NCBI GenBank assembly: GCA_027306695.1
Contig: DAHUZH010000001.1
Span: forward strand, 1-64,000
Length of the DNA: 64,000 nt
Source of the DNA: Acidobacteriaceae bacterium
GTDB lineage: Bacteria; Acidobacteriota; Terriglobia; Terriglobales; Acidobacteriaceae
Reading direction: 5' to 3'
The notes beneath the pieces are model-generated. The model made no database searches. It saw only the letters and a program-made list of their open reading frames with translations, and had not been told where the DNA came from. Every line of letters starts with the position of its first letter. Position 1 is the first letter of the stretch. The translations under genes were made by a program, and so were the position numbers. Positions 27,630 to 51,014 of the stretch are shown one piece after another.

Positions 27630-28412
27630 TTAGCCGCGTCCGATAAAGGGCATCTTTGTCGCCATCACGGTCATGAACTGTACGTTTGCGTCCAGCGGCA
27701 AGCTGGCCATATAGAGAACGGCTTCTGCGACGTGCCGCAGATCGAACGTCGGCTCCGCCGCAGTGCTTCCATTTGCTTGTAGAGCTCCGGCCGCCCACTT
27801 CTCAGTCATCTCCGTGGCCGCGTTGCCGATATCGATCTGGCCGCAGGCAATGTCGTGCTGACGGCCATCGAGTGAGATGCATTTGGTCAGGCCGGTGATG
27901 GCATGTTTGGTGGCAGTGTAAGGCGCGGAATAGGGCCTCGGCACATGCGCCGAAATCGAGCCATTGTTGATAATCCGTCCCCCGCGTGGCTGCTGCGACT
28001 TCATCAGGCGGATCGCTTCCTGAGCGCACAGGAAAGCGCCGGTCAGGTTCGCGCCTACCACCTGGGACCATTGTTCGTAACTCAGATCTTCCATTGGGAT
28101 TCCCGGAGCGCCCATGCCAGCATTGTTAAAGAGGACATCCAGGCGGCCGAACATGTTGCGAGTTTTGGCAAACAGCGCCTTCACCGAATTGGGTTGACTG
28201 ACATCGGTAGGGACGGGGTACATTTTTGCGCCGTCAAGATTAGCCATGGCCGCAGTCCGTTCAAGCTCCGCAAGTCGGCGTCCGGCCAACACTACGGTAT
28301 ATCCGGCAGACTGCATGGCCAGGGCCACTGCTCGTCCGATGCCGCTGCCTGCTCCGGTAATGATCACTACTTTGCCATCGTCGGAACGCTTGTCTGAAAG
28401 CTCGAAGTTCAT
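27630..28412 (-). CDS. SDR-family oxidoreductase
   Basis: The ATG at 28412 ([14 protein letters not shown]) overlaps the upstream Gfo stop by four bases (ATGA) and gives 260 residues. Motifs are [40 protein letters not shown] and [13 protein letters not shown] with the active-site Tyr-Lys. The C-terminal [20 protein letters not shown] is typical of a branch of SDRs of unknown substrate. It is the last gene of a four-gene run (aldolase-like, DUF6282, Gfo, SDR), probably oxidising a hydroxyl in that pathway. Confidence 0.85.
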
Positions 28413-30270: not shown

Positions 30271-30350
30271 CGAGTGGCGGCTTCCTGAAAAATCCGTTGG
30301 GCCGTTACTACAGCAGCAACGGCCGACGAGGATTGATATTTTTTGCTCAT
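30267..30350 (-). CDS. Possible 27-residue leader/small protein
   Basis: An ATG at 30350 opens a short frame (MSKKYQSSSAVAAVV, then a helical TAQRIFQEAATR) whose TGA overlaps the ATG of the DUF6282 gene in ATGA fashion. It fills the 94-base gap after the aldolase-like gene exactly. The ribosome site is weak and no homolog is recalled. It may be a translationally coupled leader or chance. Confidence 0.25.
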   Translation of the reverse strand: MSKKYQSSSAVAAVVTAQRIFQEAATR

Positions 30351-30364
30351 CTTTGCGACTCAAA

Positions 30365-31420
30365 TCAGCTTTCCAGCGTGAATGTTTCTTCTACTCGCCC
30401 ACCACGTACTCCGAACATCCGGCGATGAAGATTGACCGTTGCGTCGCTATAGTGGACCCAGATTTCTACCTGGTCGCCCACGCGCACAGCCAGATTGGGG
30501 TCGATAATATCGACGATGGTATGCTCGGCATTGAGCTTGCGAAGGTGCGCGCCATCTAGGTTCTTCAATATGGGCACGCCGTGCTCCCCGCTGATCGCCT
30601 TCAGTCCCACGTCAAGGATCAGCCATTTGTTGGGAGTTATGCTGATGATCGTCCCTAGAACGCTGGGCACGAGTTGAAAATCTGTACAGACTGCACGGTA
30701 ATCGGTATCCATCATGAGGTACGACCCGGCCTGAATTTCGGTCACGCCAGGAAACCTGCCGGACGTGGAATAGGTTCCAGTTCCGCCGCCGCTCACGATT
30801 TCCACGGGCAGGCCGTGTGATTGGATGAGCTTCGCCGTGGCGACCAGTTTCTCCATGGCCTGATGTGCGGCGTTGGCCTTGTCTGGCCCTGGTTGCATGT
30901 GGCCGCAATGGCCTTCATAGCCCATGACGCCGCGGAACCGGAGGCCTTGCGCAGATGCCAGTTTCGCCAGTGCGAGGGCTGGTTCCCCCGGCGCCGCTCC
31001 ACAACGGGCCATGCCCGTGTTTACATCGACGACGACACTCAGCGGTACATTCATCCGGGTGGATGCCGCTGCAAGGGCCGTGATGGTAACTTCGTTGTCA
31101 ACGGCAACGATGAGGTTGGCATGCTGCGAGAGATGTGCAAACTGCTCGATCGCGACTTCGCCTGCGATTTCATTGGCCAACAGGATACTTTGAATGCCAC
31201 CCTTCACCAGCGCTTCCGCTTCGCCAAGCGTCGCGCAGCTCATTCCGATCGCGCCACACGCCACCTGCTTTTTTGCAAGGGCCACGCACTTGTGGTTCTT
31301 GTAGTGGGGACGCAAACGGGTCGGCCCTTCACTGAAGAATGCCGCCATTTTCTTTAAGTTCGATTCCATGGCATCCATATCGAGCAGAAGCGCAGGCGTT
31401 TTGATCTCGGACAGTAACAT
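30365..31420 (-). CDS. D-threonine aldolase-like PLP enzyme (alanine racemase N-domain fold)
   Basis: The 351 residues show the fold-type III PLP barrel of D-threonine aldolase/D-serine dehydratase-like proteins: IKTPALLLDMDAMESNLKKM, the Schiff-base lysine K41 in RLRPHYKNHK, VDVNTGMARCGA, VSGGGTGTYSTSG and QAGSYLMMDTDY. The C-terminal beta domain ends with VWVHYSDATVNLH, where this family has its divalent-metal His and Asp ligands. Reversible cleavage of a beta-hydroxy-D-amino acid is expected. It starts nine bases after the DUF4038 glycosidase stop and opens the cytoplasmic part of the operon. Confidence 0.85.
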   Translation of the reverse strand: MLLSEIKTPALLLDMDAMESNLKKMAAFFSEGPTRLRPHYKNHKCVALAKKQVACGAIGMSCATLGEAEALVKGGIQSILLANEIAGEVAIEQFAHLSQHANLIVAVDNEVTITALAAASTRMNVPLSVVVDVNTGMARCGAAPGEPALALAKLASAQGLRFRGVMGYEGHCGHMQPGPDKANAAHQAMEKLVATAKLIQSHGLPVEIVSGGGTGTYSTSGRFPGVTEIQAGSYLMMDTDYRAVCTDFQLVPSVLGTIISITPNKWLILDVGLKAISGEHGVPILKNLDGAHLRKLNAEHTIVDIIDPNLAVRVGDQVEIWVHYSDATVNLHRRMFGVRGGRVEETFTLES

Positions 31421-31429
31421 GTGGTTAGT

Positions 31430-32950
31430 CTACTTTCCAGTTGCAATTGTTGCGTGAGAGCCGACCTGGCCCGCCGTGTCCACCAGGTAAAGAACAGCAT
31501 CCCCACGGAATGGAGGAATAAATGCTCGGGCATTCGACCCAGCGGAGATGAGGCTGGCGTGCATCGTAGTCCCCGTCGCAGGGTTGAACCATTCCACAGA
31601 GAGCTTTCGTGATCTTGGCATGGCAGAGAGGTCCATGGTGAATGGGCCGCCAGAAGGCGCATAGACCAGATACTCCGCACCAGCGGATGGAGTCTGAGCA
31701 AGACAATACTTCGTCGAACTCAGAGAGCTACGTGGAGTGACACTGCCAAGATTGAGCTTTCGAGAGTATCTCAAAATGTAACCCAGATTGTTTCTGAAGT
31801 TGTCCCAGCGCGGGTCCGGCGCGCTACAGATCATGTCCGTTGGGGACACACACATGTTACGGTGCTCACGCGGGTAGTACACCAGGTAAGGGTCCATGAA
31901 CAACACCTGGTTGCCATTCATGAAATTTTCCCATGCATAGTTGCGGTTCTGTTGTGCCGTCTCATTCCACATCCCAAAGTAAGAGTGGTCGCTGTCATTG
32001 ATGTTTACTTTGCAGGCGGGATGGCCTTGCCCACACGTACGGACCGGAGAAATTCTAACAGCCGGCGCCACCCAGTCCGCATTGGAGTTGTAAATCGTCG
32101 CGTCTGGAGTGCCTGTCAGAGCGGCGTAGCCGATGGGGTGTTGATAACGCTTCTTCGATTCATACTCTCTAACACGAGAAATCAGATGATTGTTCCACCA
32201 GACGGAATTTGCAGGAGCTTCCTCGGAAACCATCCAGAGTACATTCGGCAGATCGTTTAACGTGTCGATGGTTTTTTCGACATACGCATCCTGAAACCTG
32301 GTGATTGCGTTCGGGGCCGTCATGGTGACAGATCCAATTCCGCGCTTCCCGCCGACGTAACCATCATCGATGCCATTGATATTGTTGGCTCCAGTGAAAG
32401 GATAGCCATCGCTGGAGCAGCGAAAGACATTGAGCCATTCTCCGATGAACAGATCGACGCCCACGTAAATGCCGGCCTTGTTCAGGGCCAGCGCCCTCGT
32501 TCGCAGGCGGTCGAAATAGTTTTGATTGAACTTTGCAAGGTCGAATTTCAGGCCGCCGTCCGTTGCTCTTCCTGGACCGGTCCTCAGCCATGGCTGCGGG
32601 CTGACAGTCATGTCCGGTGGAGAACTTACTGTAGTTGGAAGAGAGCAAAAATGCGGTAATTCCACCCGCCATAACAAAGTGAAATTATGTCCATGTGTAG
32701 TAAGGAAATGGACATAAGCGTTGAAATCTAAAGCTTGCGGAGAGCCATTACTACCCCAATCTTGAAGAGTATTCCAAGTCTGCGACCCACTCAGAATCAG
32801 TACCGAGCCGTCAGCGTCCTGGAAGTAGTTGGGATTGGAGGAGGCAACCAGCGGCCCGGCAGTCCGGGTGACAACTTGTGACGGCGCAAGGCGGGCGAGT
32901 AGCAGGAGCACGAAAGGGAGCAGTGCAAGCCGTGGCCGAAGATGCAGCAT
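31430..32950 (-). CDS. Secreted DUF4038 TIM-barrel glycosidase (GH140-like)
   Basis: GGAGG six bases before the ATG at 32950 fixes the start and a signal peptide (LRPRLALLPFVLLLLARLAPS). The 506-residue product has the DUF4038 barrel: GSVLILSGSQTWNTLQDWG, FTLLWRVELPHF, AGIYVGVDLFIGEW and NVLWMVSEEAPANS with the likely acid/base Glu. A C-terminal beta domain of the putative collagen-binding type follows (VYAPSGGPFTMDLS, SVEWFNPATGT). This pairing is seen in GH140 apiosidases, but also in uncharacterised enzymes. If apiose is released here, it would fit the RuBisCO-like/kinase module at 7949-10549. Confidence 0.7.
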   Translation of the reverse strand: MLHLRPRLALLPFVLLLLARLAPSQVVTRTAGPLVASSNPNYFQDADGSVLILSGSQTWNTLQDWGSNGSPQALDFNAYVHFLTTHGHNFTLLWRVELPHFCSLPTTVSSPPDMTVSPQPWLRTGPGRATDGGLKFDLAKFNQNYFDRLRTRALALNKAGIYVGVDLFIGEWLNVFRCSSDGYPFTGANNINGIDDGYVGGKRGIGSVTMTAPNAITRFQDAYVEKTIDTLNDLPNVLWMVSEEAPANSVWWNNHLISRVREYESKKRYQHPIGYAALTGTPDATIYNSNADWVAPAVRISPVRTCGQGHPACKVNINDSDHSYFGMWNETAQQNRNYAWENFMNGNQVLFMDPYLVYYPREHRNMCVSPTDMICSAPDPRWDNFRNNLGYILRYSRKLNLGSVTPRSSLSSTKYCLAQTPSAGAEYLVYAPSGGPFTMDLSAMPRSRKLSVEWFNPATGTTMHASLISAGSNARAFIPPFRGDAVLYLVDTAGQVGSHATIATGK

Positions 32951-33168
32951 GTGTGTCCTCCAGGTGCGGCCCGTCATTTTATTTCAGAAACGGCTGCGAA
33001 AGCCATACGGGTTTTTGATGCAAGTTGCAATAGCACTGTTATTACAGAACTTTTCCCAGCTTCTCTTATCCCTCCGCCAGTTGTCAATAAATATTGCGGG
33101 CCGGAATGGCTGCAGCCTTGCGTCGCAAGGATCATGGGCCGTGTGAATGTTACCTTCTAAAATATTTC

Positions 33169-39898: not shown

Positions 39899-40831
39899 CT
39901 AGCGTTGTTCCATCATGTTCTCGATGGAACGCAGATACTCGCGATTCCTTCCAGCGCTTTCCTTCGGAGTGCCCATACCTGGCAGAACATCCTGCTCGGC
40001 AAGGACATACCCGTCGTAATGATTGGATTTCAGCCACCGCAGCATTGCGGGAAAGTCCACCGAGCCGTTGCCAAGCTCGCAGAAGACCCCGCAGCGCAAT
40101 GCCTGAAAATAGTCCCATTGCTCCGCTCGTGCCCGGTTTGCCACCTGCGGCTGATGGTCCTTGCAATGGATGTACCACACACGCTCCTTAAAGCGTTCCA
40201 ATCCTTGAACCACATCGCAGTTGGCCGCCCCGTAAGCGTAATGTGCACTGTCAAATACCAGGCCGATCAGTTCCGGGTCAGTCAACTCTAGGAATCGCGT
40301 GATCTCTTCCGGCGTCTCGACATATCCGGCGCAGTGGTGGTGAAAAGCAGCCCGCAGTCCAGTCTCCTCCCAGACCGCGTGGGCGATTTGGTTGGCACCT
40401 TCGGTAAATGTCCGCCATTGCAGCGGAGTGAGGCCCAACTCAGGAGTGATCCTTCCGGCATTGGCGATTCGTTCTGGAACGGTGGCATTGTTATCCAACA
40501 GCACCAGATAGGGTTTGGGATCGGTAGCAACGGCCGCCAGCAGGCGCGCTGTGGTGAGTGCGTTAGAGACGCCCGCTGTATGGGCATCTCGGTCCTTCAA
40601 GGCCACGCACGCTATGCCCGCAAGCATGACCAGACTGCGCTTGCCGAGTTCGGCTTTCAGCCGCTCTGGATCGGTGGGCATATATCCCCACGCGCCCAGC
40701 TCAGTGCCGGTGTAGCCTGTCTCGACCAGTTCATCGAGCATGTATCCGTACTCGATTTGCGATTTGCTGCTTTCATCAAATTCCAGTATGCTCCATGAGC
40801 AAGGAGCATTACCAACGCGCAGGCTTGTCAT
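39899..40831 (-). CDS. Xylose-isomerase-like TIM-barrel (IolE/sugar epimerase superfamily)
   Basis: The 310-residue product reads as an AP-endonuclease-2-type TIM barrel: VGNAPCSWSILEFDES start, GYTGTELGAWGYM, AAFHHHCAGYVETPEEI with metal-type His and Glu, LIGLVFDSAHYAYG, YIHCKDHQP and YVLAEQDVLPG near the end. This resembles inosose dehydratase (IolE) and hydroxypyruvate-isomerase-like proteins. The superfamily also contains 3-oxo-isoapionate decarboxylase (OiaC), which would fit the apiose theme, but I cannot tell these apart. It lies 63 bases downstream of the DUF5060 glycosidase gene on the same strand and is convergent with GH3. Confidence 0.8.
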   Translation of the reverse strand: MTSLRVGNAPCSWSILEFDESSKSQIEYGYMLDELVETGYTGTELGAWGYMPTDPERLKAELGKRSLVMLAGIACVALKDRDAHTAGVSNALTTARLLAAVATDPKPYLVLLDNNATVPERIANAGRITPELGLTPLQWRTFTEGANQIAHAVWEETGLRAAFHHHCAGYVETPEEITRFLELTDPELIGLVFDSAHYAYGAANCDVVQGLERFKERVWYIHCKDHQPQVANRARAEQWDYFQALRCGVFCELGNGSVDFPAMLRWLKSNHYDGYVLAEQDVLPGMGTPKESAGRNREYLRSIENMMEQR

Positions 40832-40894: not shown

Positions 40895-42562
40895 CTATCT
40901 GGCTTGCAAAAGAATGGCCCAATCGTGACCATCCGGCGCGTCCAGGGAGGTCCATGAAGGACCCTCCACCGATGGGAGCGGAATTTTCTGGCCGCTCAGT
41001 GCACTGAACCAATAGCCCTGGTAGTGGCCGGATTGAAGCTGTACGGTGACTTTGTCTGCATGTGGAAGATAGATGGCGTAAATCTTGCCTGGTTCCGCAA
41101 GACAGTAGTTCCCGTTGTTTACCAGCTCATCGTGAGGGTTTGTCTTCCACCAATCGAAACTGGTGAAGAAGTCCACCATGTGGCCGTAACCAAGGAACAT
41201 CGTCATGGTGTCATCGCCGCGGCCATTCATCCAGCCGCCGCCGGTGTCGGGCCAGATGTTCGTGCCTCGTTTTGCTGTTTCCCCGGAGGTCTGATAGCCA
41301 CCCGCCATCACAATGTCCCATGCGGTGCGACGCAGTACATCGGCGGAATCGGACCTAGGAGCCGCCCAAGAGGGATAGTGGTTTTCATATCCATATTCCT
41401 CGTTGGTCTGAGGAATAATGCGGCCTGCTTTTTTCTGTAGCTTGCGCGATTCCAACATCAGGTTGTGCTGGTCGCGCGACCAGTCCTGATAAGAAGTGAA
41501 TCCAAACCAGCTCGAAGCTCGATCCTGATAAATAATTTTTGTCGGATGGCTGGTCGCCAGGTGATGATATGGGTCCCATTGCTCCAGCAGCATGCCAGTC
41601 TTATGCGTCCAGGCCTCATCGCGGTAGCTGTTCAGGTCATCACCCAGGTCCCAGGTAATGTTGGAGAAGCCGCCAAAGCGCGCAACGGCATACTGGATGT
41701 AACGATATTCATCCTCGCTGCCGGCTGCCGGATGGATTTTGCCGTCGTTCATATCGAGAACAACAGAGATAATCATGTTCCTGTCGCGCGCATAGCGAAG
41801 CATACGGTCGAACTTCTGCCAATACGACACATTGAAGCGGCTGTAATCGAAGCCTGGATGGGTAAAGTCTTCTGTATCGACGGCTGGCCACGGTGTTAGA
41901 AAGACGGTCCAGTTAGCGCCGATCATGACCGGTTCGCCATAGAAGACATTGGTCCTTCCCGCTAACGCCACGCGGATGCGATTGACCTTCAGCCGGTGAA
42001 GACGGTCGATGCTGTATTGAATCGTGCGTTCATCGCGCCAGCCCATCAGCCAGAAAGCGGTTGTTCCATTGAAGAAATAGTGCTGGCCTGTGCCTTCCCA
42101 GATAAAGTGCCACGGATATTTTGGATCGTCGCGCAATATACCCAAGCGATGCGCATCGACCGCGCGCAAAGTTCCCGTGGAGGTTCTTTGAAATTTTCCT
42201 TGGCGATAAATGACGGAGTATTTGTACTCTCCGGCGCGGGGCGGCATAAAACGAATCCTGAATATACTGCCGTCCGTGGAGTCGCAAAATCCGACGATGT
42301 TCCAGTGCCCACTGCCATCGGCAGCGTCGAACGAACCAGTCAGTGTGGCGTCTTCAAATGGATTGGCTGCGTCGGGAGAAAGCACGGTCGCTGTGATTTC
42401 CGTGTAGTCGTAGACTTCCACCTGGGCAGGAGGTGTGGAATACGCGACTGCCTTCGGAGATGCCATGCAGTTTGTGGCGATGGCGAACGCCGCAACTGTC
42501 AGCGAAATTCCGAGAGGATATGCGAAGCGAGAGTGGATGCGTTCGATTGAAGGAATTCTCAT
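40895..42562 (-). CDS. Secreted DUF5060/DUF4038 glycosidase
   Basis: The 555-residue protein has a signal peptide (LGISLTVAAFAIATNCMASP), a DUF5060 beta-sandwich (about 45-120; VEVYDYTEITATV, RFMPPRAGEYKYSVIYRQGK), a DUF4038-type TIM barrel (about 140-450; FFNGTTAFWLMGWRDERTIQ, NMIISVVLDMNDGK, PQTNEEYGYENH with a candidate catalytic Glu) and a C-terminal beta domain of the DUF5605 kind (VTVQLQSGHYQGYWFSALSG). Similar enzymes act on rare linkages in plant and algal glycans, but no activity can be assigned. It is the second DUF4038-type enzyme in the window; the two share only the barrel. Confidence 0.8.
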   Translation of the reverse strand: MRIPSIERIHSRFAYPLGISLTVAAFAIATNCMASPKAVAYSTPPAQVEVYDYTEITATVLSPDAANPFEDATLTGSFDAADGSGHWNIVGFCDSTDGSIFRIRFMPPRAGEYKYSVIYRQGKFQRTSTGTLRAVDAHRLGILRDDPKYPWHFIWEGTGQHYFFNGTTAFWLMGWRDERTIQYSIDRLHRLKVNRIRVALAGRTNVFYGEPVMIGANWTVFLTPWPAVDTEDFTHPGFDYSRFNVSYWQKFDRMLRYARDRNMIISVVLDMNDGKIHPAAGSEDEYRYIQYAVARFGGFSNITWDLGDDLNSYRDEAWTHKTGMLLEQWDPYHHLATSHPTKIIYQDRASSWFGFTSYQDWSRDQHNLMLESRKLQKKAGRIIPQTNEEYGYENHYPSWAAPRSDSADVLRRTAWDIVMAGGYQTSGETAKRGTNIWPDTGGGWMNGRGDDTMTMFLGYGHMVDFFTSFDWWKTNPHDELVNNGNYCLAEPGKIYAIYLPHADKVTVQLQSGHYQGYWFSALSGQKIPLPSVEGPSWTSLDAPDGHDWAILLQAR

Positions 42563-42693
42563 TCTTCCTGTTCCAGAAAAAATATGCGCACAGAAGTAAA
42601 TGCCGCCAGCTTAAACTGCCGTGCTCCCACAATCTATAGCAATCGGACGATTTTCTCTTGTAGACCTACGAGAGCTTGCAGGAAGCGAGCCGA

Positions 42694-43815
42694 TTATATG
42701 ACCCTGCTCCGTCCAGGATGCATCTCAATTTGACCTGCAATGTCGGTGTGGGGAAGCGCGAGGCCGCCTTTTTCCCATGGCGACTGGTCTCGAAAACGTC
42801 TCCGGTAAGCTGCCGGAGTCATTCCAACCAGCTTTTGAAACACAGTCCCGAAGTAGCTCTGGTCGCAGAACCCAACCTCCTGGCTGATGCCGGACATGGT
42901 TTCGTCGGTCGTGGCCAGCAGTACCTGCGAACGCTCCACACGGAAATGGTTCAAGTATTTGATGAACGACTGGCCGGTCACGCGCTTGAAGAAACTCATA
43001 AAATGCGACTCGCTCATTCCGCAGATGCGTGCGGCTTCGCGCACCTGGATCGGATTGCCGCAGTTGTTCCCTAGGAACTGAAAGAGCGGATGCAGTCGGT
43101 CGATGTCACGCTGCTGACGCTGGAAAGTTTCGATCGTTCCGGCGTAGGAAGAGTACTGGTTCACCAGCAGGACCAGCGCCATTTTGAGATAGGTCCTGAT
43201 CGTCAACCGGGCACGAGGCGACGAGGCCGGTGTTTCTGCGCGAATGCGTCGCATCCATTCAAATACCTGCGCCGGCACACCAGTTTCCGCCGGCACAATA
43301 TGAGGGAACTTTGCATCCTGAAGTAAAAATGGAGTTAGATATTCGGCGCTATCGCTGCTGCCATCGCAACGAATCAAGTCTGGCTCAAAGAAAAGCGCGG
43401 TCATCGTAACAGGAGAATGCGAGCGGCATTCCAGACGATGATAGACAGTGCTGCCGATGATTGCCAGATCGCCCTCGTGGAAAGGAAGCAGTCTGTCCTG
43501 AATATGATATTCCGCCGAACCTGAACATAAATACAGCACCTCAAAATAACTGTGACGGTTCATACGGACGTTGCGTCGCCGATCGCCTGACAAAAACAAT
43601 ACATCCAGGGGGAAGGACGTATCGAAGGGCCACGCATGAATTCCCTCGGCGTTGATCTGAGGCTCAACGAGAAGAAACTCGTCTTCGCAAGACTTCTTCG
43701 GCACATGTACCCGGTTTGTCTTGCCCGGGCGACGGCGCACGACAGACGCATGGGTATGCAGCCGTTCGACGCTTATACTGGAGATCGATTCAAAAGATTG
43801 CTTCCACATGTCCAT
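42694..43815 (-). CDS. AraC-family regulator with cupin-like N-domain
   Basis: The ATG at 43815 (MDMWKQSFESIS) is taken, giving 373 residues; the frame opens further upstream at 43866. An N-terminal cupin-type effector domain (RRNVRMNRHSYFEVLYLCSG, FHEGDLAIIGSTVYHRLEC) is followed by two helix-turn-helix motifs (IQVREAARICGMSESHFMSF and MSGISQEVGFCDQSYFGTVF, with the AYRRRF ending). It lies 78 bases downstream of the lsrF-operon on the same strand and is its likely activator, with the neighbouring DUF5060 gene as another candidate target. Confidence 0.88.
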   Translation of the reverse strand: MDMWKQSFESISSISVERLHTHASVVRRRPGKTNRVHVPKKSCEDEFLLVEPQINAEGIHAWPFDTSFPLDVLFLSGDRRRNVRMNRHSYFEVLYLCSGSAEYHIQDRLLPFHEGDLAIIGSTVYHRLECRSHSPVTMTALFFEPDLIRCDGSSDSAEYLTPFLLQDAKFPHIVPAETGVPAQVFEWMRRIRAETPASSPRARLTIRTYLKMALVLLVNQYSSYAGTIETFQRQQRDIDRLHPLFQFLGNNCGNPIQVREAARICGMSESHFMSFFKRVTGQSFIKYLNHFRVERSQVLLATTDETMSGISQEVGFCDQSYFGTVFQKLVGMTPAAYRRRFRDQSPWEKGGLALPHTDIAGQIEMHPGRSRVI

Positions 43816-43893
43816 TACACACCCCATATAAATTTGTGCAGGTTCACTACGCCATTCCGACGGCAAACCAACACTGCGAGGTCAAGGCCAGCA

Positions 43894-44205
43894 CTAGGGA
43901 AGGACCTCTTCATAGAGCTTCACCTCAAAGGATTCCACCAGTACAGGGCGGACTTCGTCGAAAAAATGCTTGATGTAAGGCATGGCGCAATGCTTCTGAA
44001 AGATTTCATTGTCCTGCCACTTTTCAATAAAGCTGATTCGTCGCGGGTCATCGGTCCGCTGGTTCAGTTCATAGCGAATACAACCTGGCTCCTGGTGCGT
44101 CGGGCGAATCAAAGAATGCAGCGCCGCCATCAGGGCATCGGTCTCACCTTCAATCGCGAAGAATTCCGCGATACAGACGACTTGCGTAGTATTTTTCCTG
44201 ACCAT
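43894..44205 (-). CDS. ABM-domain protein, LsrG/YgiN-like
   Basis: The 103-residue product is a single antibiotic-biosynthesis-monooxygenase fold: VVCIAEFFAIEGETDALMAAL, PGCIRYELNQRTDDP, SFIEKWQDNEIFQKH and the conserved HxxxPYIKHFF. It starts two bases after the lsrF stop. In enteric bacteria the same neighbour is LsrG, the isomerase that prepares phospho-AI-2 for LsrF, and LsrG is also an ABM fold. An equivalent isomerase role here is inferred from position; the sequence itself is as close to YgiN-type quinol monooxygenases. Confidence 0.75.
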   Translation of the reverse strand: MVRKNTTQVVCIAEFFAIEGETDALMAALHSLIRPTHQEPGCIRYELNQRTDDPRRISFIEKWQDNEIFQKHCAMPYIKHFFDEVRPVLVESFEVKLYEEVLP

Positions 44206-44207
44206 AT

Positions 44208-45098
44208 TTACCTGCCCACTGGAATGTTTTTGAGAGAAAGATAGAGGTCGTAGGCCTTTTCAGGCTTTTCGTCTTCGTGGACGACTGCGCGCACTGCCTG
44301 GATCATTGCCTGCGGAGCATTGCTCTGGAAGATGTTGCGCCCCATGTCCACGCCGGCAGCACCTTCCTGGATCGCGGAGTAGGCCATCTTCAGCGCGTCC
44401 AACTCCTCCAGTTTTTTTCCGCCTGCAATCACCAGTGGTACCGGACAGGCCGCAGCCACGCGAGCAAAGCCCTTTTCGCAATAGTAGGTTTTTACGAAGT
44501 GCGCACCCATTTCCGCACAAATCCGCGTGGCCAGGCCAAGATATTTGGCGTCTCGAACCAGTTCTTTTCCCACACCTGTAACGCCCATGGTGGGAATGCC
44601 GTGACGGTTTCCGGCATCGACAACTTTGGCCAGATTGCCGATCGACTGATGTTCATGTACACCGCCCACGTAGACCTGCACAGCAAGCGCGGAGGCATTC
44701 AGTCGTACCGCATCTTCTATATCGACGGCGACCAACTCGTTGGACAGTTCCTTCAAAATGCTTTGGCCTCCGGTTGCGCGAAGCACGACAGGCCGGGACA
44801 TTTCGGGCGGAATCGAACTGCGCAACGCTCCCCGCGTAATCATCAGAGCGTCCGCGTAGGCTACTAGAGGAACGACGGTAATGTCGATGCGTTCCAGGCC
44901 TGTGGTTGGCCCCTGGAAGTAGCCGTGATCGACCGCCAGCATCACAGTCCTGTTGTCGTGCGGGATGAAGATTCGCGCCAGGCGGTTCTTCATCCCCCAG
45001 TCCAGCGCATTGCTGCCTTTCAGCCCATAAGCTGCGTTGCGATGCGGCGTGTCGAGGTGATAGTTTTTACCATCCTGAATGTCGTCGAGATCTGCCAT
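44208..45098 (-). CDS. lsrF: LsrF-type thiolase (DeoC/FbaB aldolase family)
   Basis: The 296-residue sequence agrees with Escherichia coli LsrF almost without gaps from memory: MADLDDI at the start, [50 protein letters not shown], and the catalytic Lys203 in KTYYCEKGF, followed by [14 protein letters not shown] and [11 protein letters not shown]. LsrF transfers an acetyl group from 3-hydroxy-2,4-pentadione-5-phosphate to CoA, giving DHAP and acetyl-CoA. Here it follows DhaL by two bases and precedes the ABM gene by two, within a transporter-lactonase-kinase operon. No lsrACDB, lsrR or FGGY-type lsrK is present, so its substrate may differ from AI-2. Confidence 0.88.
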
Positions 45099-45100
45099 GA

Positions 45101-45751
45101 TTAAGTTCGCCTTTCTTGTAAGAGTCCTTCATGAAATCCACGGAACAGCAATGCGATGGAAACCGCGCCCGGGTCTGGAGAACCAAGGGTCTTTTCTCCA
45201 ACGAATTTCGCGCGTCCAAAACGTGCGACAAGATTTTTTGTAGAGTCCGCTCCAGCCTGGGCCGCCGTGGCCGCCTCTTCCATCGCTTGCATTACATTTT
45301 TATCGAGCGAAGCCATCGTGCGAAAGGCGCTTACTGCCGGATCGAGCGCATCCATCATGGTTTTGTCTCCTGGCTTTGCGCGACTCACTTTCGCAATCGC
45401 ACGCAGGCCCCCCTCGAACGCACGGGCCAGTTCGCGGCAATCTATGGATTTCTTGTCCGCAGCCGCATCGCCCATGCCGCTAAAAAAAGTGCCGAGCAGG
45501 GCGCTGGACGCGCCGCCATCTACTCCCATTACACTCCAGCCGAGATCGCGCAGCAGGGAACCCAAATTCTCTGTCGAGTCAGAATGTGAAGCCTCCTCCA
45601 TACATTGCACCACACGCAGCATGGTCGAGCCATGATCGCCATCCCCTGCCACTGAATCCAACTGCGAAAGATACTCGTGCTGCTCGCGAATCTTTCTCGC
45701 GGCTGCGGCGAACATCTGCGTCAGCTCGAATTTTCCGATCTCCTCAGTCAT
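45101..45751 (-). CDS. DhaL-type kinase subunit
   Basis: The ATG at 45751 ([18 protein letters not shown]) overlaps the DhaK-like stop by four bases (ATGA), so this start is favoured over the open frame at 45790. The 216 residues contain the nucleotide and Mg-binding loop [16 protein letters not shown], the [19 protein letters not shown] helix pair, [11 protein letters not shown] and [17 protein letters not shown]. DhaL subunits bind ADP/ATP and phosphorylate the substrate held by DhaK. No DhaM phosphotransferase gene is present, suggesting direct ATP use, as in erythrulose kinases. Confidence 0.88.
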
Positions 45752-46767
45752 CTGGTCACAAAGTAAGGCGCATTCGACGGTGCATCCCACAGGCGGACCA
45801 ACTCAGTATCCATGCGGGCGATCATAATTTGAAAGCCGGCCTGCTCCTGGGTCGTGATAAATTCGCCGACGGCACTACGGACAAGATTGATATTTCTTGC
45901 TTTCAAAATTTTGGACACAGCCCGGAAGACGATCCACAGTTCCATCAGCGTTGTGGCCCCGGAGCCATTGAGAACGACCAGCAGGTTTTCGCCTGCGGCC
46001 ACGCCTAGATTTTCCAGCAGCATGTCCAGCATGATGCCGGCAGTCTCGTCCGCCGACTTCATCTTCATGCGGCCGGTTCCGGCCTCGCCGTGCTGGCCCA
46101 TGCCAATTTCCATTTCGTCGTCGCCCAGCTCGAAGATGGTGTGGCCCGTGGAAGGATGCGTCGCGGTGCGCAATGCGACCGCCAGCGAGCGCGTGTTCTC
46201 CTCCATTTTTTGCGCGATGCGCAGGCATTCATCGAGCGAGTCGCCTTGTTCCGCCACTGCTCCAGCAACCTTATAAACCGCCATGCACCCGACCAGTCCG
46301 CGGCGGTCATTCGCGCTGTCCGAATTCTGTCCGTAGGAAATTCCGTCTCGGGTCAGCACCATCTGCACCGGGATATTGTTTTTTTTGGCGGCTTGCATCG
46401 TGATGTTTGCAGAGAGTACATCTCCCGCGTGGTTCAGCACGACGAGCAGCACTCCGGGCGAGTCTTTCGCAGCCATTTGAATCGCTTCGATACATCGAGG
46501 TGCGCCCGGGGCCGCAAAAATTTCTCCCGTCACGCTGTAGTCGAGCATTCCTTCGCCGACGAAACCGCTCAGGCCAGGTTCATGCCCGCTGCCGCCAAGC
46601 GTAACCAGCCGCACTTTGCCTGCGGCCTTCGGCACGGCGCGCGCGACGATATTGGTTCCGACAAGCCGCACCTGACGCGGAAAAGCGAGCGCCAGACCCT
46701 CCAGCAGTTCGGGCAACAGATGGTGCGGATCGTTGATAAATTTCTTCATTTGCATCGTTAAAGCCAT
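45748..46767 (-). CDS. DhaK-type kinase subunit (hydroxyketone-binding)
   Basis: The 339 residues match DhaK: MKKFINDPHHLLPELLEGLA, TLGGSGHEPGLSGFVGEGMLD, LNHAGDVLSANI, and the covalent substrate histidine H226 in EIGMGQHGEAG. DhaK binds hydroxyketones as a hemiaminal with this His. ATGs at 46755 and 46749 are alternative starts. The partner DhaL overlaps by four bases, and the LsrF thiolase follows. L- or D-erythrulose, dihydroxyacetone or a deoxy-diketose are the possible substrates; the LsrF partner favours an unusual five-carbon ketose. Confidence 0.88.
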   Translation of the reverse strand: MALTMQMKKFINDPHHLLPELLEGLALAFPRQVRLVGTNIVARAVPKAAGKVRLVTLGGSGHEPGLSGFVGEGMLDYSVTGEIFAAPGAPRCIEAIQMAAKDSPGVLLVVLNHAGDVLSANITMQAAKKNNIPVQMVLTRDGISYGQNSDSANDRRGLVGCMAVYKVAGAVAEQGDSLDECLRIAQKMEENTRSLAVALRTATHPSTGHTIFELGDDEMEIGMGQHGEAGTGRMKMKSADETAGIMLDMLLENLGVAAGENLLVVLNGSGATTLMELWIVFRAVSKILKARNINLVRSAVGEFITTQEQAGFQIMIARMDTELVRLWDAPSNAPYFVTR

Positions 46768-46770
46768 CCT

Positions 46771-48156
46771 TCATTCTAGTGATTCGAGTATGGCGGGGTC
46801 CGGCAGAACGATCGGCTGCCGGAACCAGCGCGTGTGGGTTGCCAGAATCACGAACCCAACAACAAACCAGATGCCGCCCGCGATTTTTGCTGGGCTGCCC
46901 AGTCCCAACCAGATGACCGCACAGAACAGAAAGCCGAGCGTTGGCAGTGCAATGTCGAGAACAACGCTCCTCGATCTTCCTTCCGGGCAGCGGACCCAGA
47001 ACCTCCAGAGGACTGCGGCATTGACGCCCATGAATCCAAGAAATGCGCCAAAGTTGAGGATTTCGGCGGTCAGCTCATAGCTGAGCAACTGAGAGCCGAT
47101 AAAGGCCAGCACTCCAAGGAAAATCACGTTGATGTCCGGTGTGTTGCGAGTCGGATGCAGGCGGCCAAAGAAGCGGCGGGGAATGACGTTTTCACGCCCC
47201 ATGCCGAACATCAACCTCGCGCCACCTACCTGCGACGTCAGGCCCGAACCGATGTTCGCCACCACCAGCAGAATGGCTGTGGCCTGCAATAAAGCATAGC
47301 CGCCGACCCGGCCCGTCACATCGATAAAAGCAGTGTCGACGTTGACGAAGGAGTGGTAATTTGGCCATGCAAGCTGCGCCAGGTACACGAGCAGGCCGCC
47401 GAACATCCCAGTAAAAATGCAGACCGTCACCGCGGCAACCAGTACATTTTTGCGTGGATTCTCCACTTCCTCCGCCAGCGTGGTGACGGAATCGAAGCCG
47501 AGATAGGTGAGCGCCGCGAATGAAGTAGCGCCTGCAACGCGGCGCAGGTTGAAGGTTGCCGGATTATAAAAGGGCGCGATAGAAAACAGTCCGGTCATGC
47601 CATGACGTACGACCAGATATTTGATGGCGAGCACGATAAAACTGCCCAGCACCAGGAACATAAAGAGCAACAAGACCTGGTTGGTGCGGGCCGTGGAACG
47701 GATGCCGCGCAGGTTCAGGATTGTGATTCCTCCAGCAAACAATAGAGCGCCTGCAGAAAATGGCAGCGCGGGAATTGCCCGCTCTAAAGAAAGCGTTCCA
47801 TAGATGACGCAGAACAACGGAATCAGCATGTAATCGAGCAGCATGGCCCATCCCGCTACAAAGCCGAGATATGGATGAATGCCGCGCCCGACATAGGTAT
47901 AGGCCGATCCTGCACTGGGATAGAGCGAAGCCATTCTGCCATAGCTGATCGCCGTCAGAACCATGGCGGCCATCGCCGCGAGAATTGTGAGCGCGACATG
48001 GCCTCGCGAGCGGACATCCGCCAGCCCGAAGATGGTGGATGGCGCGCTGGGTGTGACCGCAACGATGCCGTAGAAGATCAAGTCCCACAGCGTCAGTACG
48101 CGACGCAGGTGGGGAGTATTGCCGCCTGGAACCGAAATGACAGCGGGAGCGCTCAC
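46771..48156 (-). CDS. APC-superfamily permease (1)
   Basis: The GTG at 48156 (VSAPAVISVPGGN) overlaps the SMP-30 stop as GTGA and gives 461 residues; the longer upstream frame is an Arg-rich shadow of the SMP-30 gene. About twelve hydrophobic segments are seen, with APC signatures LTLWDLIFYGIVAVTPSAP, SYGRMASLYPSAGSAYTYVG, TYLGFDSVTTLAEEVENPRK and GSGLTSQVGGARLMFGMGRE. APC carriers import amino acids, amines or small acids by proton symport. It sits three bases before the dhaK start, so it should import the substrate of this operon. Confidence 0.88.
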   Translation of the reverse strand: MSAPAVISVPGGNTPHLRRVLTLWDLIFYGIVAVTPSAPSTIFGLADVRSRGHVALTILAAMAAMVLTAISYGRMASLYPSAGSAYTYVGRGIHPYLGFVAGWAMLLDYMLIPLFCVIYGTLSLERAIPALPFSAGALLFAGGITILNLRGIRSTARTNQVLLLFMFLVLGSFIVLAIKYLVVRHGMTGLFSIAPFYNPATFNLRRVAGATSFAALTYLGFDSVTTLAEEVENPRKNVLVAAVTVCIFTGMFGGLLVYLAQLAWPNYHSFVNVDTAFIDVTGRVGGYALLQATAILLVVANIGSGLTSQVGGARLMFGMGRENVIPRRFFGRLHPTRNTPDINVIFLGVLAFIGSQLLSYELTAEILNFGAFLGFMGVNAAVLWRFWVRCPEGRSRSVVLDIALPTLGFLFCAVIWLGLGSPAKIAGGIWFVVGFVILATHTRWFRQPIVLPDPAILESLE

Positions 48157-49055
48157 GAACGCCTCGTGTTGTTCGATTCGCTGCCGTCCCAAAGAGGCAG
48201 GCCATCGCAGTCGACTGGAAATGTTTCCAACCGGCCATGTTCGTACTCTGTCACCAGGATGCGATGCTCGCCGGGCAGAGCAAATGCCACGTTCGTCGGT
48301 AACTGGCCTTGCGTGGGAATTCGTTGAACGACTTCGCCCCTGCTTCCCAGCACTGTGACGTCGCCCTGCCCAAACACCGCGACATACAGCAGGCCGTTCC
48401 GATCGAAGGCCATGCCGTCCGGGCCTTTCCATCCCGCAGGAGCATCGGGACGGATGACATTTCCGAAGAACTCCCGCTCCGGTAAAACCGGTCCAGCGCC
48501 GAGCCGATAGCGATACACATTTCCGGTGAGGGTTTCATTCACGTATAGAAGCCCATCGGGACCAAAGGCGATTCCGTTGGTAAACCGGAGGCCGCCATCG
48601 AGCTGGATGACCTCACTATTGTTTGGATCGACGCGATACACTCGACCGTCGTAATCGACATCCATGTAGTCGGCACGAATTTGCCCTCCTGGCGAAAAGT
48701 TGTCGGTCAGAATGCCGGAGTCGGTCAGATAAATCGCGCCGTCCGGTCCAAAGCAAAGATCGTTGGGGAACAGAAACGGTTCGCCATCGCAAGCGGTCGC
48801 AATGGTTTGCATCTGCCCATCCATGGTCAACCGGAGCAGGGAAGGGAACTTGGATTCGGCGACCCAGATAGTTCCATCGTTATCGATGGCCAGCCCGTTG
48901 GGACGGCCAGTCCGCTGGATGATTTTCTTTGTCCGGCCATCCGCGCCGATCTGGGTCACACAGCCGCGCTCCGGCCCGCTCTCAACCACGAGCCAGCTAC
49001 CGTCCGGCAGGGCGACAGGGCCTTCGGGAGAATGGAGTCCGGCTGCGAAAATCAT
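48153..49055 (-). CDS. SMP-30/gluconolactonase-like beta-propeller
   Basis: The ATG at 49055 (MIFAAGLHSPEGPVALP) has GGAG about five bases upstream and begins exactly at the family's first blade, giving 300 residues. Metal-binding motifs are SPEGPVALPDGS (Glu), GRPNGLAID (Asn), FPNDLCFGPDGAIYLTDSG (Asn and Asp) and GWKGPDGMAFD. Such enzymes hydrolyse sugar lactones with Ca, Zn or Mg. Its end overlaps the permease start, and a dehydrogenase (SDR) precedes it, so a dehydrogenase-lactonase step is expected. Confidence 0.88.
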   Translation of the reverse strand: MIFAAGLHSPEGPVALPDGSWLVVESGPERGCVTQIGADGRTKKIIQRTGRPNGLAIDNDGTIWVAESKFPSLLRLTMDGQMQTIATACDGEPFLFPNDLCFGPDGAIYLTDSGILTDNFSPGGQIRADYMDVDYDGRVYRVDPNNSEVIQLDGGLRFTNGIAFGPDGLLYVNETLTGNVYRYRLGAGPVLPEREFFGNVIRPDAPAGWKGPDGMAFDRNGLLYVAVFGQGDVTVLGSRGEVVQRIPTQGQLPTNVAFALPGEHRILVTEYEHGRLETFPVDCDGLPLWDGSESNNTRRS

Positions 49056-49098
49056 AGAATTCTCCAGGGGAGTATCCCTATCAGGGTAAACCTCAATG

Positions 49099-49908
49099 TC
49101 ATACCTCCGCCGTCTGGCCTCCATCGACATACAAGCATGATCCAGTGATAAACGAAGCGTCCTCGGAGGCAAGAAACAATGCGGCTTTGGCAATTTCATC
49201 CGGGCGGCCCAGCCGCCCCATGGGGAACGTATTTGCAAACGCCTGCAGTTGCTCCGGTGTCATGGCTCTACGCAGCATGGGCGTGTCTGTGGGGCCAGGG
49301 CAGATTGCGTTGACGCGAATGCCCTGCCTGGCGTGGTCGATGGCCATGGCCCGCGTCAGCAATGTAACACCGCCCTTGGAACTCACATACGCCGCTGCGC
49401 GGGCACAAGCGTCGTGCGCTCCTGTCGTGGAGGCGACATTGATGATCGATCCACGGCCCTGTTGGACCATGCTGGGAATCACAGCCCGGCAGCAGAGATA
49501 CGTCCCAGTTAGATTGACGGTAAGGATGCGGTTCCAGTCCGCCGGTTCCGTTTCAAGGACCGTTCCATACTGTAAAATGCCCGCTGCATTCAGCAAAATG
49601 TCGATTCGTCCATAGGCTTCCAGCGCGGTTTGAACCATCCCGTCCACCTGCAATGGTTGCGATATATCGACCTCAGTAAACACGGCGGTTCCGCCACTCG
49701 CGCGGATCGAATCGACGGTTTGAGTGCCCAGGGTTGGGTTGCCGTCGGCAACGACAACGCGGGAGCCTTCGCGAGCAAACATTTCTGCGGATGCGCGGCC
49801 AATGCCCGAGGCCGCACCGGTAATAAGCGCTACTGTTCCTTCGAGTCTCGTAGAGATTTCCCGCCTCGGATGGCGCAGCGAATGAGGACTGGCTACTGGA
49901 TGATTCAA
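49099..49908 (-). CDS. SDR dehydrogenase heading the lactonase-kinase-lsrF operon
   Basis: A TTG start (49908) with AGGAC upstream gives 269 residues. SDR motifs: ITGAASGIGRASAEM, NAAGILQYG, NVASTTGAHDACARA with the active-site Ser, AAYVSSKGGVTLLTRAMA (Tyr and Lys), and the ending FITGSCLYVDGGQTAEV. It resembles sugar and sugar-acid dehydrogenases. Together with the SMP-30 protein it would oxidise a sugar to a lactone and open the ring. It is divergent from a second SDR gene. Confidence 0.87.
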   Translation of the reverse strand: MNHPVASPHSLRHPRREISTRLEGTVALITGAASGIGRASAEMFAREGSRVVVADGNPTLGTQTVDSIRASGGTAVFTEVDISQPLQVDGMVQTALEAYGRIDILLNAAGILQYGTVLETEPADWNRILTVNLTGTYLCCRAVIPSMVQQGRGSIINVASTTGAHDACARAAAYVSSKGGVTLLTRAMAIDHARQGIRVNAICPGPTDTPMLRRAMTPEQLQAFANTFPMGRLGRPDEIAKAALFLASEDASFITGSCLYVDGGQTAEV

Positions 49909-50252: not shown

Positions 50253-51014
50253 ATGAGACTGCGTGGAAAAGTTGCCATTGTGACCGGGGCGGCGGCTGGT
50301 TTAGGCCGCGCCGTGGCTGTCCGCTTTGCATGTGAAGGAGCGATCGTCGTGGCGGCAGACATCAATACGGCGGGGGGCGCCACTGTCATGAAACAGATTC
50401 ATGCATCGGGAGGGGAGGGTCTGTTTGTACCAACCGATGTCTCGCAGGAACGCGATGTCGCGGCATTGGTGGAAGAGACCATCCGACGCTATGACCGGAT
50501 CGATGTGCTCTACAACAACGCGGCTGTGCTGTTCCACGACCGCGACGCGCGCGCCCATCAATTAAGCCTGGAGACATGGGAGCAGACCATGTCGGTGAAC
50601 TTGCGAGGAGCGTTCCTATGCGCCAAGCACGCCATTCCGCCAATGCTGCAACAGGGTGGGGGGTCCATCATCAATCTAGGCTCGCCCACTGGCATGACGG
50701 GCTGTGCTCCCAATCTGACGGCCTATAGCACCAGTAAAGCAGGGATATTCGGACTGACGCGGATGATGGCTGCCGGTTATGCGAGGGACCAGATTCGCGT
50801 GAACGCCATTGTTCCGGGGACCATGGACACGCCCATGAACGATGGTTTGCTGATCGATGAAGCCGCGCGCGAGCAGTACCGCGAAGCCGTGCCCATGGGC
50901 CGCCTGGGATTACCGTCAGACATTGAAGGTCTGGCGGTCTTTCTTGCCTCTGACGAGTCGGCCTACTGTACCGGCGGTCTGTATACCTGTGACGGCGGAC
51001 TCACCACGGTTTGA
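50253..51014 (+). CDS. SDR-family oxidoreductase
   Basis: The 253-residue product has IVTGAAAGLGRAVAVRF, YNNAAVLFHD, the Ser of NLGSPTGMTG, YSTSKAGIFGLTRMMAAGY with the active-site Tyr-Lys and a CTGGLYTCDGGLTTV ending. It is related in length and motifs to the SDR it diverges from but is not a near copy. A monocistronic unit is likely: the next gene is convergent. Its role is probably oxidation of a related polyol or sugar. Confidence 0.87.
   Translation: MRLRGKVAIVTGAAAGLGRAVAVRFACEGAIVVAADINTAGGATVMKQIHASGGEGLFVPTDVSQERDVAALVEETIRRYDRIDVLYNNAAVLFHDRDARAHQLSLETWEQTMSVNLRGAFLCAKHAIPPMLQQGGGSIINLGSPTGMTGCAPNLTAYSTSKAGIFGLTRMMAAGYARDQIRVNAIVPGTMDTPMNDGLLIDEAAREQYREAVPMGRLGLPSDIEGLAVFLASDESAYCTGGLYTCDGGLTTV

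Follow-up and report, generated by a model that had tools for sequence, protein, structure and literature searches.

Among the described systems nearest to the locus considered here is the lsr operon (lsrK, lsrR, lsrACDB, lsrF and lsrG), in which LsrF is described as a thiolase; its thiolase reaction was reportedly the subject of work by Marques in 2014. Other systems that resemble it in part are the DhaK-DhaL dihydroxyacetone kinases, the 5-deoxyribose salvage pathway (DHAP shunt) and the oxidative D-apiose pathways, which Carter is said to have described in 2018. Here, we analysed a window of 64,000 nucleotides from an Acidobacteriaceae bacterium, with an operon that can be compared with each of these. 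Like the lsr operon, it has an LsrF with identical named catalytic residues and an ABM-domain gene right after it; however, a Dak-type kinase replaces LsrK, an APC carrier replaces the ABC importer, LsrR and LsrB were not found in the loci searched nor LuxS in the genome, and the ABM protein is distant from LsrG. The Dak1 and Dak2 subunits, with equivalents of His56, Asp109 and His218, are those of dihydroxyacetone kinases, but the pocket motifs are replaced and DhaK falls under the equivalog cut-off. The likeness to 5-deoxyribose salvage lies in the conversion of a ketose-1-phosphate to DHAP and a C2 fragment, and in other bacteria LsrF is found beside MtnA and aldolase/SDR fusions, whereas the operon kinase belongs to a different family and LsrF stands in place of DrdA; family assignments revealed neither an MtnA-type isomerase nor a class II aldolase among the window genes at 40895-49908. 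As in the oxidative D-apiose pathways, a sugar dehydrogenase, a lactonase and a kinase lie beside an apiosidase-family glycosidase, but here the first two are of SDR and SMP-30 types and LsrF would be the lyase; no RuBisCO-like proteins (OiaX/OiaT) or ApnO oxidoisomerase were seen among the genes scanned.

The operon occupies the minus strand from 49908 to 43894 in the order SDR, SMP-30 lactonase, APC carrier, DhaK, DhaL, LsrF and ABM, and all seven open reading frames (families adh_short, SGL, AA_permease_2, Dak1, Dak2, DeoC and ABM) are present where the earlier note had placed them. The first gene encodes a short-chain dehydrogenase, SDR1 (49099-49908; PF13561, 237 bits; GxxxGIG, NAAG and YxxxK motifs), relatives of which (62-72%) hold the same position in loci L046-L049, L054 and L171. 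It lies about 43 nt upstream of the SMP-30/gluconolactonase-like lactonase (48153-49055; PF08450, 107 bits) if the latter starts at ATG 49055, the probable start in a frame open from 49238; the SPEGP, PND and PDGM motifs of the lactonase presumably have a metal-ligand role. The lactonase gene overlaps by 4 nt that of the APC-family permease (46771-48156; PF13520, 92 bits), whose GTG start at 48156 is deduced from this overlap, and a 3-nt gap separates the permease from a DhaK-like kinase subunit with an altered substrate pocket (45748-46767; PF02733, 331 bits). Then follow, after a 4-nt overlap, a DhaL-like subunit (45101-45751, with a probable ATG start at 45751; PF02734, 163 bits) and, after gaps of 2 nt each, the LsrF-family class I aldolase/thiolase (44208-45098) and the ABM-domain protein, a possible isomerase (43894-44205; PF03992, 58 bits). 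The tight packing from lactonase to ABM described earlier thus stands, but this run holds six genes and not seven, the SDR being the seventh.

Directly 3' of the operon, also on the minus strand, lies an AraC-family regulator (42694-43866; PF12833, PF07883), relatives of which (56-74%) adjoin the operon in L039, L046-L049, L051, L054, L128 and L149, and further on a DUF5060 plus PF13204 (apiosidase-like) glycosidase (40895-42562) that is the sole PF13204 match in the genome. On the plus strand, a divergent short-chain dehydrogenase, SDR2 (50253-51014), is conserved near the operon in several relatives (65-70% in L046, L047 and L049; 66% in L045). A BhcC-like PLP enzyme of the D-threonine aldolase family (30365-31420, minus strand; PF01168 and PF14031) reaches 240 bits with NF045642, below the cut-off of 690, and its relatives (48-55%) adjoin the operon in L046, L047, L050, L052, L053, L054, L128, L149, L153 and L154. 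AP_endonuc_2 proteins also occur nearby, at 39899-40831 in the window and in L052. An Iol-type route, prompted by the IolE-like gene at 39899-40831, was dropped because matches listed for the mapped loci included none to this gene.

The LsrF gene is the single LsrF match in the genome. Its product shares 63.9% identity with E. coli LsrF in an alignment spanning 291 residues, exceeds the cut-off of the NCBIfam LsrF equivalog NF006081 (494.7 bits vs 297) and keeps Lys203, Asp57, His58, Gly226/227, Asp251, Gly253 and Arg254, residues whose roles are given in the accessible part of PMC2728841. The earlier claim that Lys203 is kept and that the protein agrees closely with the AI-2 enzyme is therefore borne out by the identity and the intact set of named active-site residues. 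The operon LsrF falls in a clade separate from the LsrFs of lsr operons. Elsewhere, LsrF adjoins class II aldolase/SDR fusions, MtnA or FGGY kinases, neighbours consistent with action on sugar phosphates. When genomes were searched for the LsrF family, all 14 named controls, E. coli among them, stayed below the cut-off, despite the presence of lsrF in E. coli MG1655. A Gln112/His148 signature shared by DhaKL-linked LsrFs was also considered; it occurs in 21 rows, which make up most of those from Acidobacteria, and we did not use it as evidence since Bacteroidota (Thr112) and L050 (Tyr148) break the pattern.

The DhaK gene is likewise the sole Dak1 match in the genome. The kinase has Dak1 and Dak2 domains with the catalytic His and Asp, and DhaK retains the equivalents of His56, Asp109 and His218, which we take to be the functional positions of dihydroxyacetone kinases; DhaL scores above its model TIGR02365 (151.5 bits, cut-off 138.3), and DhaK below the TIGR02363 equivalog (309 bits, cut-off 406). 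Four pocket changes mark the protein: Lys104 to Leu, Tyr106 to His, FTSP to FAAP and GIHGEPG to GQHGEAG. Among rows aligned over at least 280 residues, the full set was present in all 17 distinct subfamily genes (31 rows) and in none of the 14 other DhaK rows, although Lys104 itself is missing in other Dak1 genes too (Gly in 11 of those 14). Two Bacteroidota DhaKs encoded beside LsrF have the same motifs, except for GEGG in place of GEAG, and in the comparison the acidobacterial and Bacteroidota LsrF-linked DhaKs separate jointly from the remaining DhaKs. Judged by its motifs, this DhaK is a member of a subfamily in which the pocket motifs of DHA kinases are replaced, and a plain DHA kinase function is disfavoured. 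The altered pocket is a point additional to the earlier note.

The operon was found again in other Acidobacteria, thus its gene arrangement is not due to chance. LsrF follows DhaKL at 18 of 20 assessable acidobacterial loci, the window counted, with DhaK damaged in three of the 18 (truncated in L042 and L043, spread over two frames in L053). DhaKL-ABM stands without a neighbouring LsrF in L150 and L154, hence DhaKL is able to occur without an adjacent LsrF; both genomes have LsrF elsewhere. The neighbourhood search for LsrF with DhaK/DhaL that the earlier note had called for thus showed a recurring pairing in Acidobacteria, strengthened by the two Bacteroidota cases, in which the same DhaK subfamily lies beside LsrF. 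One of the DhaK-LsrF pairs is in a record of Parabacteroides distasonis, a gut commensal. The Bacteroidota LsrFs group apart from the acidobacterial ones and have Thr112 instead of Gln112. In the literature searched, which included few subscription papers and no preprints, the DhaK-DhaL-LsrF pair is apparently undescribed.

One rival reading is degradation of AI-2 or DPD (quorum quenching), with DhaKL in place of LsrK. Such a role would agree with the order of LsrF and ABM, which is that of E. coli lsrF-lsrG, and a Dak-type kinase could substitute for the FGGY kinase. However, LuxS was not found in the genome (assembly 91% complete), and neither was the AI-2 kinase LsrK in the same assembly: the best match has 28% identity and scores 222 vs 528 with the AI-2 kinase model. 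That match, the best of five LsrK-like ones and the one classified by NCBIfam, is a xylulokinase (541 bits, cut-off 380). When E. coli lsr proteins were compared by tblastn (E<=1e-6) with 23 acidobacterial loci (L032-L054, ten of them under 4 kb), only lsrF was returned, with a match of merely 33% in L041; this upholds the view that LsrR and LsrB are absent from the loci and that the FGGY kinase and ABC importer are replaced. The ABM protein does follow LsrF as LsrG does, as noted earlier, but its sequence gives no support to an identity as LsrG, with 19% identity and no BLAST match at E<=1; profile comparison by hhalign (96.8%, 21% identity) places the kinship at superfamily level, and the best solved relative is 2bbe/SO0527. 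The lactonase and the glycosidase would be left unexplained by AI-2, and DPD probably lacks the ketone beside CH2OH that Dak kinases need. The operon thus appears unlike an AI-2 system, since no LuxS was found, the best LsrK-like protein is a xylulokinase, the ABM protein is far from LsrG and LsrF has its own clade. A quorum-sensing reading was rejected on the failure to find LuxS and LsrK in the 91% complete assembly, the tblastn result and the LsrF clade, and AI-2 or DPD degradation appears very improbable. The earlier preference for a catabolic operon over quorum sensing gains support from the same data, and two parts of the contrary evidence that it had named first did not appear: LsrF does not cluster with the canonical proteins and no LsrK was found, the search for lsrA, lsrB, lsrC, lsrD and lsrR covering the 23 loci.

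The glycosidase directs attention to other substrates. In five of the seven operon-bearing genomes searched, every PF13204 gene found lies less than 10 kb from DhaK, a linkage counted within operon-bearing genomes; it is an observation additional to the earlier note. In L050 the PF13204 gene precedes the lactonase and overlaps its start, and the enzyme resembles the solved apiosidase 8t9w over most of its length (E=3.3e-44, residues 61-459). To our knowledge, apiose is the only PF13204 product, and the family hints at apiose, a poor fit for LsrF chemistry. D-Apiose would be converted to apionolactone (SDR1), apionate (lactonase) and then, by rearrangement, 3-oxo-isoapionate or L-erythrulose, phosphorylated by DhaKL, with LsrF as a Schiff-base decarboxylase or aldolase and not a thiolase. 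Besides the linkage and the L050 enzyme, this route is favoured by the AP_endonuc_2 proteins and by the passage of known apiose pathways through 3-oxo-isoapionate-4-phosphate, according to the accessible part of PMC6302742. Yet closeness to the solved apiosidase was seen for L046 and L050 only, the window protein being of the DUF5060 type with the uncharacterised hydrolase 4n0r as its best solved relative, and LsrF would need other chemistry though its catalytic set is unchanged; we regard this route as unlikely. A deoxy-sugar would make use of the reaction for which LsrF is reportedly known: a 6-deoxyhexose or 5-deoxypentose (e.g., L-fucose) would pass through a lactone and an aldonate to a 3-keto acid, lose CO2 to give a 5-deoxypentulose, be phosphorylated by DhaKL and oxidized at C4 by an SDR to P-HPD, which LsrF would cleave to DHAP and acetyl-CoA. 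In L054 the operon, and in L150 the DhaKL-ABM cluster that is without LsrF, has alpha-L-fucosidases at its flank, but these two loci are the only ones; we know of no deoxy-sugar product of PF13204, and both the CO2 loss and the C4 oxidation are without an assigned enzyme. In L092 the neighbours of LsrF are MtnA and an aldolase/SDR fusion, and in L104 it again adjoins MtnA, which fits 5-deoxyribulose-1-phosphate, an intermediate of 5-deoxyribose salvage according to the accessible part of PMC6079011; a word search of the accessible text of that paper and of PMC12632272 gave no mention of LsrF. On balance, such a substrate seems improbable. Still another course would oxidize a pentose to a pentonate and 4-ketopentonate, with DhaKL forming the 5-phosphate and LsrF acting as a class I aldolase to yield DHAP and glyoxylate, the latter removed by the BhcC-like enzyme. 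The SDRs, lactonase, kinase and aldolase would suffice, the BhcC-like gene adjoins the operon at many loci, and a class III aminotransferase occurs in L050, with relatives in L052 and L053. The BhcC-like score is, however, far under the BhcC cut-off, and LsrF is described as a thiolase; we consider this course distinctly unlikely.

We give an even chance to a dedicated sugar-catabolic operon serving carbon supply and not signalling, in which DhaKL and then LsrF would produce DHAP and a second fragment. The PF13204 glycosidase would free the sugar, which SDR1 and the lactonase, probably with SDR2, would convert to an acid and then a hydroxyketone. DhaKL may phosphorylate its CO-CH2OH end, in keeping with Dak-family chemistry, the pocket suggesting a substrate other than dihydroxyacetone. 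The Schiff-base lysine of LsrF would act on the phosphate-side keto group, and the bond past the DHAP unit would be cut to release DHAP and an acyl-CoA, an aldehyde or CO2. Since every named active-site residue of E. coli LsrF is kept, we prefer CoA-dependent cleavage of a 2,4-diketose-1-phosphate (e.g., P-HPD, 3-hydroxy-2,4-pentadione-5-phosphate) to DHAP and acyl-CoA; cleavage to DHAP and an aldehyde ranks next. Isomerization of the diketone, a reaction of LsrG, may fall to the ABM protein. A catabolic role of this kind is supported by the conserved operon, the identity, active site and separate clade of LsrF, the lack of any LuxS or LsrK found in the genome, the DhaK pocket changes and the PF13204 linkage. 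Against it, the branched skeleton of apiose yields no linear LsrF substrate, the APC carrier and nearby PLP enzymes hint at an amino compound, and the C4 oxidation making the 2,4-diketose is without an assigned enzyme. Moreover, LsrF is absent beside DhaKL-ABM at two loci, the lactonase was not found at L054, L129, L149 and L153, DhaK is broken at three loci, the Bacteroidota LsrFs are separate and without Gln112, and in G414, of the same genus, with an 89% LsrF, no DhaK was found (genome 73% complete).

The NCBIfam model labels the operon LsrF an AI-2 (3-hydroxy-5-phosphonooxypentane-2,4-dione) thiolase, and public Bacteroidota records label the paired genes dihydroxyacetone kinase and AI-2 thiolase; our analysis suggests that these labels do not fit what the pair does. 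Because the pair occurs in a Parabacteroides distasonis record, the correct reaction would matter for the reading of gut as well as soil genomes. It is possible, though doubtful, that DhaK-DhaL-LsrF is a catabolic module common to soil Acidobacteria and Bacteroidota, in which a specialized Dak kinase would phosphorylate a diketose and LsrF thiolysis would yield DHAP and acyl-CoA. If true, central metabolism would be fed in an unusual manner, by the CoA-dependent splitting of a sugar phosphate directly to DHAP and acyl-CoA, in a sugar pathway proceeding through a retro-Claisen and not a retro-aldol step, and the signalling role of LsrF would be just one use of a general sugar-phosphate thiolase.

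The operon lies on the minus strand of the window. SDR1 (49908-49099) is its first gene and stands about 43 nt upstream of the SMP-30 lactonase gene, given a presumed lactonase start at 49055 (the gene ends at 48153). Genes for the APC permease (48156-46771), DhaK (46767-45748), DhaL (45751-45101), LsrF (45098-44208) and ABM (44205-43894) follow, and the junctions from lactonase to ABM are 4-nt overlaps or 2-3-nt gaps. The open reading frames, protein families and junctions found thus bear out the operon as the earlier note had described it. After ABM, on the same strand, come an AraC regulator (43866-42694) and a DUF5060 + PF13204 (apiosidase-like) glycosidase (42562-40895). Dak1, LsrF and PF13204 have one match each in the whole genome, all within this stretch. 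An IolE-like TIM barrel gene (39899-40831; 169.6 bits against a cut-off of 290) adjoins the glycosidase gene and had no match near the operon in the mapped loci of relatives. A second gene set, at 25397-32977, encodes two Gfo/Idh-like proteins, a GntR protein, an SDR, a DUF6282 protein, a BhcC-like enzyme and a DUF6298/PF12904 protein; in other genomes (loci L049, L154 and L046), the operon is adjoined by relatives of several members of this set.

The operon is real and conserved. LsrF was matched at E<=1e-40 in 11 of 200 genomes of the family, 9 being above cut-off, and DhaK adjoins LsrF in 7 of these 9 (it is cut short in genome G369). Genome G386 (L032/L045) has only a DhaL remnant of 29 residues beside LsrF, and in G414 (L035), which is 73% complete, no DhaK was found beside LsrF or elsewhere in the genome. 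A scan of genome contigs, in which the best 80 of at least 469 confirmed LsrF loci were kept, placed acidobacterial loci (L042-L054) in all of the best 13 positions; DhaK is present in 11 of them, the exceptions being L045 and L044, the latter arranged as in G414. Among 250 genomes of the class, 15 have a DhaK at E<=1e-60; the subfamily of the window's DhaK (at least 65% identity) occurs in 6 of those 15, at 7 loci, with LsrF adjacent at 5. Across the entire phylum it occurs in few genomes: at E<=1e-110 it was matched in 2 of 396, the window's own being one of the two.

With each acidobacterial gene counted once (duplicate records merged) and the window included, there are 21 loci of this DhaK, and LsrF is next to it in 18, among them three with a broken DhaK (L042, L043, L053) and one (L171 of G301) with just 51 LsrF residues on the contig. 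Of the others, the locus of G188 is cut off by a contig edge, and L150 and L154 are DhaK-DhaL-ABM without LsrF; their genomes have LsrF elsewhere, a 65% one in G576, and in G580 one at 80% (its other operon copy) and another at 60%. In the wider phylum, LsrF is above cut-off in 46 of 247 genomes, and DhaK, DhaL and ABM were found at none of 29 LsrF loci besides the window's (flanks up to 1.5 kb on each side); thus LsrF alone is common and it is the operon that is special. It also looks dispensable, since L042 and L043, the closest by LsrF among the matches listed (92%), have lost the upstream half: SDR1, the lactonase and APC genes, and at least the first half of DhaK (which aligns from residue 172 onward in L042:6319-10968 and from residue 237 in L043:1039-5652).

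The LsrF keeps Lys203, as the earlier note had stated: the eight active-site residues of E. coli LsrF (57, 58, 203, 226, 227, 251, 253, 254) are identical in 120 of 121 aligned rows, the last row being gapped. At the 23 acidobacterial loci L032-L054, ten of them under 4 kb, a search with the E. coli lsr proteins gave lsrF alone, in agreement with the reported lack of LsrR and LsrB near the operon. Over L032-L121 the same search picked up sets of lsr genes in Gallibacterium, L061 and many alphaproteobacteria. In a midpoint-rooted FastTree phylogeny of the 121 rows (120 distinct locus rows, including E. coli locus L122, plus E. coli lsrF again), the DhaKL-linked LsrFs form one group (support 0.942; 19 labelled rows and 4 more, some of them incomplete, that repeat genes already in the group), and no lsr-operon LsrF falls inside it. 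LuxS was not found in the genome (91% complete), and E. coli LsrK gave five FGGY-type matches there, the best (28% identity) being a xylulokinase. Together with the separate LsrF group, this agrees with the view that quorum sensing is not involved; judged by sequence, the operon does not look like an AI-2 system.

In comparison to the E. coli and Lactococcus proteins, the window's DhaK has Leu for Lys104, His for Tyr106, FAAP for FTSP and GQHGEAG for GIHGEPG, while His56, Asp109 and His218 (E. coli numbering), which we take to be catalytic in E. coli DhaK, are kept. With rows left out whose alignment covers fewer than 280 residues, the full set of changes is present in 31/31 subfamily rows (17 distinct genes) and in 0/14 other DhaK rows, where position 104 is Gly in 11 and Lys in 3. 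The whole-protein score is 309 bits against a DhaK equivalog cut-off of 406. Given the replaced motifs and this score, "dihydroxyacetone kinase" is here the name of a family, and as an activity only putative.

A tblastn search of plasmid records with LsrF gave 19 records, and six were examined: Shinella (two, one unannotated), Sagittula, Parabacteroides distasonis, Aureibacter tunicatorum and Lacticaseibacillus. The order DhaK, DhaL, LsrF recurs in Parabacteroides and Aureibacter, whose DhaKs show 52-53% identity to that of the window and share its pocket motifs except GEGG for GEAG; DhaK was matched in 508 plasmid records, and the next best of these reaches 41%. The DhaK tree splits the acidobacterial and Bacteroidota genes from the other DhaKs compared (support 1.000). 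The LsrFs of the Bacteroidota fall outside the acidobacterial group, which speaks against one common origin of the DhaKL-LsrF pair. Two propeller proteins (a beta-propeller one and a cytochrome-type one), a RidA/chorismatase-like protein, a protein of 104-105 residues that matches no Pfam family, and one further unnamed protein are common to both Bacteroidota clusters. A very large FGE-sulfatase/HZS_alpha protein is also encoded in both (L172:11235-25466, L173:12066-24530).

A PF13204-type gene lies within 10 kb of DhaK in 12 of 20 relative loci checked; among the 8 that lack one, L149 and L150 are long, and the other 6 either are short or stop at the gene. PF13204 is matched by each of the 17 proteins given this label, that of the window among them. 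Matches were counted in seven genomes, all operon-bearing. In G000, G426, G324 and G377 the sole match, and in G591 both matches, are no more than 10 kb away from DhaK; G332 has 1 of about 5 such genes near DhaK, and G580 has a sub-cut-off match by one DhaKL copy and four others elsewhere. Since the chance of such a place in a 4-5 Mb genome is about 0.5% per gene, 6/6 genes in five genomes would be an improbable coincidence, in a tally that covers operon-bearing genomes only, three of the five being 84-91% complete. The lactonase gene start in L050 is overlapped by the PF13204 gene, whose protein aligns with a solved apiosidase over residues 61-459, lining up the Asp and Glu that are presumably catalytic there. 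The window's protein is of the DUF5060 type, and the solved structure closest to it belongs to a putative glycoside hydrolase for which no activity is named.

From the chemistry of these families, we prefer a route of sugar catabolism in which the SDR and lactonase would oxidise the sugar released by the glycosidase, DhaKL would phosphorylate a CO-CH2OH group, and LsrF would form an imine at that ketone and break the bond beyond the next carbon. A second ketone beyond that carbon would allow a CoA-using split to DHAP and acyl-CoA, a hydroxyl there would give DHAP and an aldehyde, and a carboxylate CO2. Of these we favour the CoA-dependent split, given that the active site of LsrF is unaltered and that the Pfam families of the operon genes include no aldehyde dehydrogenase. 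Several observations count against this sugar-catabolic reading: the loci without LsrF beside DhaKL (L150, L154), the presence of an APC carrier and of PLP enzymes close by, and the lactonase not found in L054, L129, L149 and L153. The hints about the sugar also conflict: apiose is suggested by PF13204, a linear deoxy-sugar by the chemistry of LsrF, and glyoxylate by the BhcC-like neighbour; alpha-L-fucosidases occur near an operon-type cluster in two cases only (L054, L150).

LsrF was also seen in other surroundings. A class II aldolase/SDR fusion, MtnA and LsrF stand in a row in L092:6892-10897, MtnA precedes LsrF in L104:8750-10897, and LsrF is beside or near MtnA and the fusion in L063:3204-10882. 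The chemistry proposed above for LsrF would also account for such neighbours, which suggest that 5-deoxyribose salvage has an oxidative branch with LsrF as its last step, in which C4 oxidation of 5-deoxyribulose-1-phosphate would yield P-HPD (3-hydroxy-2,4-pentadione-5-phosphate), the LsrF substrate. In Shinella (L164, 7001-14870) and Sagittula (L166, 2752-8081), the neighbour of LsrF is a long protein annotated as an SDR, or else a class II aldolase together with an FGGY kinase, and in Sagittula there is also a glycerol-3-phosphate-dehydrogenase-like gene; this is apparently a further non-AI-2 use of LsrF. In Deltaproteobacteria and others, LsrF adjoins a member of one zinc-alcohol-dehydrogenase cluster (L058, L073, L084, L097, L100, L108, L113, L117, L118, L121; Pfam checked in L058 and L060 only).

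In the literature searched we found no description of the operon's function, and its genes have probably been misnamed by automatic annotation.
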